Assembly (NCBI RefSeq): GCF_000756655.1
Contig: NZ_ARXU01000018.1
Span: 1-47,793, forward strand
DNA: 47,793 nt
Direction: 5' to 3'
Source of the DNA: Alcanivorax jadensis T9
Lineage (GTDB): Bacteria; Pseudomonadota; Gammaproteobacteria; Pseudomonadales; Alcanivoracaceae
The notes below the pieces were generated by a model, which was not told where the DNA came from, made no database searches, and worked only from the letters and a program-made list of their open reading frames with translations. Below are positions 5,687 through 42,325 of this stretch, one piece after another (the first letter of the stretch is position 1; every line of letters starts with the position of its first letter). A program made the position numbers and the translations under genes.

Positions 5687-5754
5687 AGCTACGAGCTACG
5701 AAGTAATTCCACTATTTTTTTCTGTCTTGTAGCTCGTCCCTGGTAGCTAGAAGC
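5687..5754. repeat. Inverted word repeat (AGCTACGAGCTACG type)
   Basis: The left arm AGCTACGAGCTACGAAG (5687-5703) is two near-tandem copies of GAGCTAC. The right arm (5726-5754) holds the reverse complement in degenerate tandem form. CGAGCTAC plus AAG can pair with CTT plus GTAGCTCG to make a stem of about 11 bp with one bulge around a T-rich loop. It fills the gap between two convergent genes and may act as a terminator. One arm of the same word recurs at 35596-35616. Confidence 0.7.
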
Positions 5755-5760
5755 TGATCA

Positions 5761-6201
5761 TCACCCGCAACACTTCTTGAATTTCTTGCCGCTACCGCAG
5801 GGGCAGGGATCATTTCTGCCACGCTTTAATGCGCTGACTGAGGGTGTGCCGTCCAGGTAATACCAGTGGCCGTTTTCGCGCACGAAACGCGAGCGTTCTT
5901 CGAGTACGCTCAAGCCCTGACGATCCTTGCTGGTGGCGCAAAAGTGTACCCAGCCAGTATCTCCCTTTTCGCCACTGGCGATGATCTCCAGAGCCAGCCA
6001 CTGCTGGTCGTCATCCAGGTCCAGCCCGACAGGGCGCTGGCTCAGGTGCCAGCTGCGGGCGATGTAGTCGGTATTTTTCATCGCAAAGGCGGAAAACCGC
6101 GAACGCATCAACGCTTCCGGTGAGGCTGCCGGCTTGCCCTGGTGGAGGGGCTGGCAACAGTGTGCGTAGTCCAGTCCGGACTGGCAGGGGCAAGCGCTCA
6201 T
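5761..6201 (-). CDS. ychJ: YchJ family (UPF0225) SEC-C motif protein
   Basis: 146-aa cytoplasmic protein of unknown biochemical role. A cysteine cluster CPCQSGLDYAHCC lies at the N-terminus and the C-terminal SEC-C motif DPCPCGSGKKFKKCCG ends the protein. These are the two zinc-binding ends typical of YchJ, around an NTF2-like centre with the family phrase EALMRSRFSAFA. Its ATG overlaps the stop of the upstream TetR-family gene by four bases (TCAT on the plus strand, 6198-6201), so the two are co-transcribed and translationally coupled. Confidence 0.92.
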   Translation of the reverse strand: MSACPCQSGLDYAHCCQPLHQGKPAASPEALMRSRFSAFAMKNTDYIARSWHLSQRPVGLDLDDDQQWLALEIIASGEKGDTGWVHFCATSKDRQGLSVLEERSRFVRENGHWYYLDGTPSVSALKRGRNDPCPCGSGKKFKKCCG

Positions 6202-6782
6202 GGGGTCTCTCCACTAAAGCAATCGAACAGCGCCAGCAGATCCTGGCGCAAGCGGGGCAGATTCTCGGCCCAGGGATCATTCAGTACCAGCGCATTCATG
6301 GCGCCGTTGAGCAACACGGTCAGTCCTTCGGCGCTGCCGGAAAAGTGCAGGGCGCCTTCTTCCATGGCTTCGCGAATGCCCTCACGCAACAGCGGGAAGC
6401 TGTAACGCTCGTCCAGGGCCCGCCAACGCTCCTGACCCAGCACCGAGGGGGCTTCGACGACCAGGATGCGTCGCACATCGTCCCGGGCCATGAAATCCAC
6501 CCAGGCCAGGCTGCCAGCCTTCAGGGTGGCCAGGCTGCCGCGCTGCCCGGCGACGGCTTTCTCGATGGCTGCCATGGCTTCCCGGCTGAGCAGATCGCAA
6601 ACCGCTTCGAACAGCTCCGCCTTGTTGCGGAAATGGTGGTACATGGCGCCCCGGGTCACCCCGGCACCGGACAGAATGATCTCCGTGCTGGTGTCCGCGT
6701 AGCCCTGTTCGGCAAACAAATGGCGGGCGGCATTGATCAGGCAGCCGCGGGTCTGGGCGCGACGTTGGGCATTGGTAGCCAT
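6198..6782 (-). CDS. TetR/AcrR-family transcriptional regulator
   Basis: 194-aa repressor-type regulator. The N-terminal helix-turn-helix is clear at about 30-52 (TEIILSGAGVTRGAMYHHF, then RNKAELFEAV). The rest is an alpha-helical ligand-binding domain with no recognisable ligand signature. It is divergent from a VOC-family gene, with two similar 21-bp palindromes in the 93-bp gap, so it probably represses itself (with ychJ) and the VOC gene. Ligand unknown. Confidence 0.92.
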   Translation of the reverse strand: MATNAQRRAQTRGCLINAARHLFAEQGYADTSTEIILSGAGVTRGAMYHHFRNKAELFEAVCDLLSREAMAAIEKAVAGQRGSLATLKAGSLAWVDFMARDDVRRILVVEAPSVLGQERWRALDERYSFPLLREGIREAMEEGALHFSGSAEGLTVLLNGAMNALVLNDPWAENLPRLRQDLLALFDCFSGETP

Positions 6783-6802
6783 GATGTCCTCTTCTGGTTG
6801 AC

Positions 6803-6855
6803 AAACAGACTACCAGTTTGTTTTTATTTACTCAAAACAAACTACTTGTCTGTTT
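6803..6855. promoter_or_regulatory. Two tandem TetR-type operators
   Basis: Site 1 (6803-6823) reads AAACAGACT-ACC-AGTTTGTTT, with 8 of 9 positions symmetric. Site 2 (6835-6855) reads AAACAAACT-ACT-TGTCTGTTT, with 7 of 9 symmetric. Both have 9-bp half-sites around 3 bp and their centres are 32 bp apart, about three helical turns. They lie exactly between the divergent tetR-type and VOC genes. Confidence 0.75.
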
Positions 6856-6875
6856 TATTCACAAGGAGGTATCAG

Positions 6876-40617: not shown

Positions 40618-40697
40618 GCTTTGCCCCTACAACGTAAACACACAAGCTTTGGCCCACTTGGCAGGGCAGACTATGCCACAGTAACCGGATTGTCGCC

Positions 40698-40728
40698 TTG
40701 CGACCGTCGCAAAAAACGATAACGTTTT
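40698..40728. promoter_or_regulatory. Two adjacent palindromes between reductase and amidase
   Basis: TTGCGAC-C-GTCGCAA (40698-40712) is perfect over 7-bp arms, and AAAACG-ATAA-CGTTTT (40713-40728) is perfect over 6-bp arms; they abut. The second ends just before the amidase ribosome-binding site (GGGAG), so a bound repressor would block it. No regulator gene is adjacent. Confidence 0.5.
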
Positions 40729-40743
40729 CGGGAGAGCACACGC

Positions 40744-42240
40744 ATGAAGTTCGAGGAATATCGCCAATTTGATGCCATGGGGCTGGCGGAGCTGGTGGGT
40801 AAGGGCGAGGTCGCTGCCAGCGAGTTGCTGGAGACTGCCATCGCCAGGGCGGAGCAGGTGAATCCCTCCCTGAATGGTCTGATTATTCCCCTTTACGAGC
40901 AGGCCCGGTCGCGCGCCGCCTCACCGCTGGAAGGCCCCCTGGCCGGGGTGCCCATGCTGGTGAAGGACTTGTTTCAGGAAATGGGAGGGGCGCCCAGCTA
41001 TCAGGGTAACAAGGCGCGCAAGAAAAACGATATCCGCGCGGATCAGGATTCCACCCTGGTGGCCCGCTGGAAGGCCGCTGGTCTGGTGCCCTTCGGTCGC
41101 ACCAATACCCCGGAGTTCGGCGCCAAGGGGATCACCGAGCCGGATTCCTATGGCCCGGCCCGCAACCCCTGGAACCCGGACCATACCCCCGGTGGTTCAT
41201 CCGGTGGCTCTGCCGCCATGGTGGCGTCCGGGGTGGTGCCTGTAGCCGGCGCCAATGACGGTGGTGGCAGTATCCGCATCCCGGCAGCCTGCTGCGGCCT
41301 GTTCGGACTCAAGCCCGGTCGCGGGCGCACTCCCTGGGGGCCCACCTTTACCGAAGCCATGCACGGCATTGCGGTGAACCATGTGCTGACCCGCTCGGTG
41401 CGTGACAGTGCGCTCCTGCTGGACCTCACTCACGGGGATGAGCGCGGCAGCCTGTTCCAGATCGCGCCGCCGGCGCAGCCCTATCAAGTGGCTGCGGCAT
41501 CCCGTCCCGGGACCCTGCGAATCGGTTTTTCCACGGCGTCGCCGCTGGGCACACCGGTGGATCCTGAAGCCGTCAAAGCGGTGGAGAAAACCGTGGCCCT
41601 GCTACGGGAGCTGGGCCACGAGGTGGTCGAGGCCGAGCCGCAAATGGATGCCAAACAGATGTGCATGGACTGGCTCTCCGTCTGGTTTGGTCAATGTGCC
41701 GCCGAGGTTGATGAAGTGAAGGCGTTGACCGGCTGTGGTGACGAAGGGTTCGAGCTAGATACCCTGGCCATTGCCGCCTTTGGCCGCGCGACGCCTGCCC
41801 ATGAATACGTGAAATGTCAGACCCGTTGGCAGCAGTACATGATCGCCCTGGATACCTTCCTGGAGCAGTACGATTTCTGGCTGACGCCGACGCTGGCCAT
41901 GCCCCCCGCACGAATCGGGGAAATGGCCACTCCGGGCTGGCAGCAGAGCGCCCTGAAAATGCTGCTCAAGGTGGGCGGCGAAAAACTGTTGATGAAAACC
42001 GGCATGATCGAACAGATGGCCATGGAGAACTTCAAATACATGCCCTTCACCCAGTTCGCCAATGTCACCGGGGTGCCGGCCATGTCGGTGCCGTTGCATT
42101 GGTGTGACTCTGCTTCAGGAAAACCGGGCCTACCGCTGGGGTCCCAGTTTGTCGGTGGCCATGGCGATGAAGGCAAGCTGCTGGCGCTGGCGGCGCAACT
42201 GGAAGAGGCGGCACCCTGGTTCGACAAGGTGCCGATGTAG
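40744..42240 (+). CDS. Amidase (amidase-signature family)
   Basis: 498-aa cytoplasmic amide hydrolase. The Ser-cisSer-Lys triad is K74 (VPMLVKDLF), cis-Ser S152/S153 (GGSSGGSAA) and nucleophile S176 (GANDGGGSIRIPAA). The length and motif order match stand-alone 6-aminohexanoate/aryl-amidase-like members rather than GatA, since no gatB or gatC lies nearby. It has no signal peptide. GGGAG precedes the ATG. Substrate unknown. Confidence 0.93.
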   Translation: MKFEEYRQFDAMGLAELVGKGEVAASELLETAIARAEQVNPSLNGLIIPLYEQARSRAASPLEGPLAGVPMLVKDLFQEMGGAPSYQGNKARKKNDIRADQDSTLVARWKAAGLVPFGRTNTPEFGAKGITEPDSYGPARNPWNPDHTPGGSSGGSAAMVASGVVPVAGANDGGGSIRIPAACCGLFGLKPGRGRTPWGPTFTEAMHGIAVNHVLTRSVRDSALLLDLTHGDERGSLFQIAPPAQPYQVAAASRPGTLRIGFSTASPLGTPVDPEAVKAVEKTVALLRELGHEVVEAEPQMDAKQMCMDWLSVWFGQCAAEVDEVKALTGCGDEGFELDTLAIAAFGRATPAHEYVKCQTRWQQYMIALDTFLEQYDFWLTPTLAMPPARIGEMATPGWQQSALKMLLKVGGEKLLMKTGMIEQMAMENFKYMPFTQFANVTGVPAMSVPLHWCDSASGKPGLPLGSQFVGGHGDEGKLLALAAQLEEAAPWFDKVPM

Positions 42241-42251
42241 AGGCTAAACGG

Positions 42252-42325
42252 CGAGTTACGAGTTGCGAAGAGCGAAAGGTTTTTCGTTACTCGAACCTCG
42301 TCACTCGTTTTTGATTTTTGTCATC
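42252..42325. repeat. Inverted word repeat (CGAGTTACGAG type)
   Basis: The left arm CGAGTTACGAGTTGCGAAG (from 42252) faces the right arm CGTTACTCGAACCTCGTCAC then TCGTT. It lies between convergent amidase and PF10118 genes, beginning 12 bp after the amidase stop. Confidence 0.75.

Follow-up and report, generated by a model that had tools for sequence, protein, structure and literature searches.

Opposing heptamer arrays bound small intergenic elements in Alcanivorax jadensis and accompany S23 (PF05635) genes

Alcanivorax is an oil-degrading marine bacterium. We analysed 47,793 nucleotides of Alcanivorax jadensis T9 (assembly GCF_000756655.1, contig NZ_ARXU01000018.1, our contig C18; "the window" below means this whole stretch), from a genome of 3.63 Mb in 29 contigs. 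Six intergenic gaps in the window hold two opposing arms of tandem repeats around a centre, and a solitary arm occurs at two further places. The repeats have a period of seven at all eight loci, and arrays of the same period flank genes of the S23 family (PF05635, "23S rRNA-intervening sequence protein") in the genus and elsewhere in its phylum. On balance we think that the window gaps belong to a superfamily of small exchangeable elements linked to S23, in which the opposing heptamer arrays are the cognate ends and the window copies are derivatives without S23.

All six gaps and both solitary arms of the original prediction were found at the positions it had given. Its description of the arms as words of 6-11 bp was rejected for distinct units, since every word reduced to period 7; the heptamers are given in Table 1. 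Periods were counted in the window together with 20 further stretches, each of 20 kb and picked by coordinate from the same genome (447,793 bases in all), with one order-2 shuffle per source. Runs of at least 27 nt with at most three mismatches numbered 12 for period 7 against one in the shuffle, five against none for period 14, and three against none for period 21. Among the remaining periods from 4 to 20, period 16 had one run and all others had none. Looser settings raised further periods, mostly multiples of three, a pattern given by coding sequence. In these 448 kb, 47 array segments formed 34 loci, of which 17 were paired with an inverted partner. Removing six loci judged coding or weak, merging two into one and adding two window loci gave the 29 elements used for the placement statistics below, or about 235 per genome by extrapolation. 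The repeats had been predicted to be multicopy, and they are: a search with the 29963 element alone gave 22 matches in the A. jadensis genome, and elements of this type turn up again in other members of the genus (17 genomes, the one genus studied in depth). The array at L024:4957-5312 consists of about 50 near-perfect GAGCTAC copies in tandem and is shorter at the same slot in genome G003. Three contig ends of genome G016 (G016:C5:1-94, G016:C5:340562-340659 and G016:C10:1-95) fall inside GAGCTAC arrays, and arrays of this kind are a probable cause of assembly breaks.

PF05635 is a four-helix bundle remotely like Avd. It was present in 16 of the 17 genus genomes, in none of 14 control genomes, and in 37 of 200 genomes drawn across the phylum (34 above the curated cut-off). 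The A. jadensis genome has copies at C5:47971, C5:51823 and C2:130693 and a partial match at C9:80735. A period-7 array lay within 160 bp of the S23 gene at 27 of 32 genus loci (on both sides at 18) and, in the rest of the phylum, at 27 of 29 (both sides at 16). In far windows of these loci such an array was present in 16 of 375 for the genus and 4 of 336 for the others; some loci were kept in contig orientation for these counts, with flank windows that are nearly symmetric. Other periods from 4 to 13 were found near S23 at no more than two of the 29 non-genus loci or one of the 32 genus loci. A first count, with locus L028 included, had set the distance at 200 bp and given a period-7 array at 28 of 33 loci, where 4000 random places gave 3.6%. 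The median array run was 29 nt (92 runs), and the words outside the genus included GTAGGCA, GTGAGTA, AATGGCG, GGCAATA and GGCTTAA. With orientation corrected, an ungapped test showed that the arms beside S23 were inverted beyond the shuffled 99% level at 47 of the 60 testable loci out of 62. This test replaced an earlier gapped one, which had placed 13 of 62 loci above its own 99% level and whose null was poor owing to related words and long gapped alignments. Five S23 proteins were scanned and all were TIGR02436 four helix bundle proteins; two of them distantly resembled Avd, with every match below the cut-offs (NF033474, E 8e-5 and 1.3e-4; PF22296, E 8e-5 and 1e-5). The solved relatives of S23 are 2gsc (XCC0516, E 3.5e-14) and, weakly, 2rld (E 0.017), with five chains each, and S23 is described as a homopentamer in the available text of PMC4990558.

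These counts bear on an account in which the arrays came first: slippage would make them, template switching would make the inverted copies, and S23 elements would merely insert between arms that were already there. Array length does differ by entire repeat units (15 copies in G003 where others have 2; about 50 at L024:4957), and the near-perfect long arrays look like slippage. However, slippage has no preference for seven, the words follow S23 clades, and the concentration of period 7 outside the genus in S23 flanks rather than far windows is not what such an origin predicts. We regard it as improbable.

Word and protein distances were correlated within the genus (Spearman r 0.61, 31 loci, 0/1000 permutations; dereplicated 0.40, 14 loci, 3/1000) and outside it (r 0.39, 26 loci, 0/1000; dereplicated 0.33, 22 loci, 1/1000). 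This test, also in corrected orientation, used 57 of the 62 S23 loci, leaving out two with broken frames and three without an array by our filter. Clade 1 (AREKSRAFALR type) had the words AATTGAT, AGTTAAC and AGTTGAC; the genus words of clade 2 (RDFGFRDQITRS type) were AG[CT]T followed by three positions that vary freely; and a third clade had GACGTCC and CACGCAA among its genus members, with many further words elsewhere. All six window words belong to word groups of genus S23 elements.

The long elements had the order arm, CGCG, spacer, centre, spacer, CGCG, arm. CGCG was present on both sides in 8 of 12 long elements and in 1 of 7 short ones (null 105/5000). One centre, a hairpin of the form GGCCGCG...CGCGGCC, occurred at 51 places in the genome (47 forward and 50 reverse hits; 0 and 2 for the reversed control). 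Flanks were read at 17 of these 51 places, and period-7 arrays stood beside the hairpin at 16 of them, at much alike distance: on both sides at 11, on one side at the threshold at four, and at L261 on both sides at a laxer threshold only. The copy at L251 had no period-7 array beside it. The framing words were AATTGAT, GTTAACA, AGTTGAC, TTAATAG and AAGCTTC, with AAGTTTC in L261. One centre is therefore framed by several words, and the claim that the centres are always unrelated was rejected on this module common to many elements. The further claim that each word is its own family held in part: words do group with S23 protein clades, but a single centre module crosses several of them. Short elements such as those at 27273, 42252 and L021:1086 have, by eye, inner ends that resemble those of S23 elements with the same word type; those of 27273 look like clade-1 ends. 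No S23 frame was found in the eight window loci, and S23 members with like arms lie elsewhere in the same genome. The window elements were filed as linked derivatives, and not as members of the S23/intervening sequence (IVS) type, because they lack S23; the stem-forming terminal inverted repeats of that type are present at six window loci. One more copy of the hairpin module sits right at the contig end (47720-47754).

We compared 16 elements of the A. jadensis genome (from the window and the element-rich stretches L018, L021 and L024 of the 20 taken) with the orthologous slots of four close relatives, and 55 of 64 comparisons succeeded. Of the 55 located slots, 53 still held an array, often of another word, centre or orientation. 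The best-fitting of 18 hand-entered words, for which near-ties flip labels, was the same in 20 comparisons, another of the same group in 18, of another group in 11, a nonamer in four and none in two; elements that are plainly the same despite a change of label (29963 in G003 and G011, L024:8192 in G016) mean that the same-group class overstates change. All 11 between-group moves were within the three groups belonging to clade 2. All 12 changed slots remained in one clade (15/100000 random draws), in a post hoc test with groups drawn after seeing the data, hand-entered slots and three weak changes (29963, 35596 and 39465). In the wider family (22 loci), the gaps at 27273 and 29963 also held words of other clades: an AAGTTGA type at 27273 in L032, and GACGTCT, GACGCC or CACGCTT types at 29963 in several loci. 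Other gaps were array-free, and those of 6-7 nt at 29963 (L037, L040 and L046) had flanks too divergent for the junction to be read. Orthologous gaps were thus mostly filled in close relatives, with array-free ones among more distant loci.

At the window slots, the AAGTTGA-type element of G016 at 5687 was about 160 bp long; AATTGAT stood at 17751 in G016, and that slot was array-free in G015 and G011. The slot at 27273 held an AGTGAAC/AGTTAAC type in G016 and G003 and AATTGAT in G015 and G011, while 28001 held GCCAGAC in four of four close relatives. At 29963 there was a different centre in G016 and a PF13366 gene with nonamer arms in G015. GAGCTAC was found at 35596 in G016 and G003, and AAGCTAC in G015 and G011. 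At 39465 the centre was, by eye, inverted in G015, and at 42252 nonamer CACAGAG elements were present in G016, G003 and G011. At L018:3507 the relatives' centre appeared homologous by eye and the word was different. One S23 element lay between the same two genes, whose ends we take to be those of glyA and nrdR, in five genomes with three words in all. Compared with the A. jadensis copy, its left flanks were 91-94% and its right flanks 83-93% identical, and the S23 gene was 99.7% identical in G016 and 72-78% (aligned part) in G003, G004 and G010. The slot comparisons and this five-genome slot together show that content change at fixed places is common. In a G003 gap (the 27273 slot) and a G006 gap (the 42252 slot), two heptamer elements of unlike words adjoin, as if the second had arrived beside the first.

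The anatomy, the period, the linkage to S23, the relation of word to clade and the turnover at the slots are observed; binding, mobility and service in trans we infer. Full members would carry the S23 gene between their arms, and the derivatives without it would be either short, with S23-like inner ends, or about 150 bp long, with a centre bounded by CGCG. The period would be fixed at seven and the word free within limits set alongside the associated S23 clade. In the mechanism we consider most likely, an S23 ring would bind the arrays, one heptamer per subunit, and so hold the two arms together; this pairing would promote copying or replacement of elements, with the cutting step made by a host enzyme or by one still unknown. 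Copies without S23 would be served in trans. The site behind a stop codon would tolerate exchange, so that slots stay filled while their content turns over.

Several observations weigh against this reading. Five of the 32 genus S23 loci and two of the 29 others had no detectable array within 160 bp. There are one to four S23 copies per genome against the roughly 235 elements extrapolated for A. jadensis. Genome G001 is without S23 yet has 12 and 9 strand-wise hairpin hits and one array in 24 kb; these are the lowest hairpin count (others 16-71 forward) and the lowest array density in the orthologous stretch, and the sole genome without S23 is no test. Joint inheritance would be enough to produce the word-clade correlation. 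No catalytic function is known for S23 according to the available text of PMC4990558. Finally, a pairwise survey for empty sites, which counted ordered pairs and included arrays inside genes, listed 47 sites as empty, and among the 18 of these that were read no full element faced an alignable empty site. The 18 consisted of arrays in coding sequence, incomplete arms, arrays that differed in length, as where 15 copies in G003 faced two, and one two-armed element of G003 that met a lone short arm in G015. We relied on the slot comparison instead. The prediction that the elements are mobile gains from the S23-encoding versions and the turnover at orthologous slots, but the survey gave no insertion of a full element to go with them. 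The elements could also be standard miniature inverted-repeat elements that belong to several DNA transposons as yet unknown, with S23 as a passenger, and their inverted ends, small size and high copy number would suit that origin. However, many words share a single period, and the gene found between heptamer arms was S23, with no search made for transposase genes there. No target duplication was readable either, since the 18 of 47 cases contained no full-element insertion against an alignable empty site. We consider this origin slightly less probable still than pre-existing arrays.

The arms had been said to begin near stop codons. A long-frame stop lay within 12 bp at six of the eight window loci, and the genome sample was enriched, if not to an extreme: a stop was within 30 bp at 22 of 26 elements with a stop-side neighbour, compared with 2113 of 3686 (57%) random placements in gaps. 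Elements were scarce in divergent gaps (2/26 elements vs 44/175 gaps). Compared with shuffles, three of the six window elements folded far better as RNA (z-scores -6.1 at 27273, -6.4 at 28001 and -6.9 at 39465), a fourth moderately (-3.2 at 42252) and two hardly (-1.1 at 5687 and -1.6 at 29963). The hairpin at 39503-39547 was absent from the terminator-like sites called, and a standard terminator there was rejected. The suggestion of a transcription-related role thus gains from the preference for the space behind stop codons and loses from this hairpin.

The elements might be read as 3'-end RNA devices: once transcribed, their arms would form a long stem that RNase III trims, so that the message upstream is stabilised or ended, and S23 would be a partner that binds the RNA. 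Selection would keep the slots, words would drift by paired changes, and movement would be rare or past. Placement and scarcity in divergent gaps, the folding of the better four window elements and the persistence of the slots are consistent with this, as is the Coxiella rRNA S23 element, whose terminal stem of 28 bp is cleaved by RNase III (PMC4990558, in the text available). Paired drift does not account for slots where relatives carry an entirely different centre, an inverted centre or a nonamer element. The weak folding of 5687 and 29963, close to the shuffled level, and the absence of the hairpin from the terminator calls also speak against this reading. We rank an RNA-processing role second and think it unlikely, after the S23-served exchangeable element, which we rank first.

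Parts of this anatomy have been described separately. The IVS of Coxiella burnetii 23S rRNA encodes S23p, of the same protein family, and has terminal inverted repeats forming a 28-bp stem; its authors noted that the S23p frame is preceded by tandem GACAGAT heptamers, two or three of them with a further degenerate copy, treated these as a local feature and argued S23p to be expendable there (PMC4990558, available text). The heptamers before the frame and the terminal stem are the same anatomy as in the S23 elements here. The Coxiella element lies in 23S rRNA, whereas the 20 S23 loci scanned here contained no rRNA, since the Rfam scan gave no matches in them. Intergenic heptamer arrays are also known as GGGAATC in Xanthomonas (70 and 75 inverted pairs in two genomes) and GGGGA(C/T)T in Nostoc, where they were explained as G-quadruplexes in a main text that does not feature S23 (PMC4692102, as far as available). 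S23 locus L224 in our set has GGGAATC-type arrays on both sides. Tandem TAACTGA heptamers occur in many intergenic places in Beggiatoaceae, Cyanobacteria and Bacteroidetes; those of Beggiatoaceae are mostly direct repeats before start codons, unlike the elements here (PMC4679880, available text). One class of paired heptanucleotide sites in Geobacter metallireducens has five tandem heptanucleotides, paired on opposed strands (PMC2700814, available text). The Beggiatoaceae and Geobacter repeats were read as regulatory sites, and S23 appears in neither main text as available (PMC4679880, PMC2700814). Avd of diversity-generating retroelements is a related four-helix bundle (PMC10053308, available text), and S23 scores below the Avd cut-offs. 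Reverse transcriptase (PF00078) had no matches in the A. jadensis genome and was present in 6 of 17 genus genomes; it was rejected as a needed genomic partner, and the A. jadensis elements lack the reverse transcriptase in the genome that marks a diversity-generating retroelement. Repetitive extragenic palindromes and bacterial interspersed mosaic elements (REP/BIME) consist of single palindromes, 20-40 bp long, that have a GTAG motif and go with a REP-associated transposase. The arms here are period-7 arrays instead, and that transposase was not searched for. Rfam gave no matches in the window either, which with the S23 loci ruled out a known Rfam family.

No general statement that S23 genes carry heptamer ends was found in the open-access literature searched. 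Heptamer repeats and the rRNA S23 element were known separately. Many bacteria have an excess of heptamer repeats, which have received no detailed study (PMC4692102, available text), and S23 proteins have no known function according to PMC4990558 (available text); the association links two long-unexplained oddities. A link with a fixed period and a free word makes both the repeats and the function of S23 directly testable. If fixed slots keep being filled as their content changes, the elements behind a few hundred genes per genome also evolve in an unusual way.

PF13366 (GxxExxY) loci handled in the same way as S23 had period 9 at 11 of 22 loci (far windows 7/264), period 10 at four of 22 and period 7 at none of 22. 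Across the phylum (L225-L244), these genes had arrays of period 9 or 10 nearby and never 7, a possible second system. In the genus the family occurred in 2 of 17 genomes, at L110 (G015:C20:155491-155841) and L109 (G004:C5:184881-185231), and not in A. jadensis; the two genes occupy the neighbouring window slots 29963 and 28001, and CACAGAG-type nonamer arrays adjoin them. With so few genomes, A. jadensis not among them, and nonamers in place of heptamers, PF13366 was rejected as a general partner. As a tentative generalisation, the heptamer arrays of many bacteria may be the cognate ends of an unrecognised class of elements around a pentameric S23 ring, in which the protein would fix the period, each lineage would have its own word and both arms would change together; PF13366 with nonamer ends might then be a second system of the same logic.

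Table 1. Heptamer elements and solitary arrays of the window.
Feature	Word	Position	Strand	Arms and inner features
Short element	GAGCTAC	5687-5754	.	arms ~5687-5705, ~5729-5754
Solitary array	AATTGAT	17751-17780	.	
Element	AATTGAT	27273-27389	.	arms ~27273-27297, ~27358-27389
Short element	GCCAGAC	28001-28066	.	arms ~28001-28015, ~28035-28066
Long element	AAGTTGA/C	29963-30128	.	arms ~29963-29989, ~30097-30122; CGCG within both arms
Solitary array	GAGCTAC	35596-35624	.	
Long element	AGTTAAC	39465-39606	.	arms ~39465-39475, ~39577-39606; central GGCCGCG hairpin 39503-39547
Short element	CGAGTTA	42252-42325	.	arms ~42252-42270, ~42282-42307

A general inverted-repeat search with arms of at least 16 recovered the arms at 27273, 28001 and 29963, listed the inner hairpin at 39465, and missed the arms at 5687 and 42252, which are too short or degenerate for it. 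The 628-residue protein encoded at 28074-29960 has its nearest named relatives in Alcanivorax and Alloalcanivorax. A perfect 27-nt inverted repeat, GTAGGAGCG...CTTGAGGCGCGAA, lies at 18932-19014 of the window and is presumably REP-like; like pairs occupy the 42252 slot in genomes G002 and G014.

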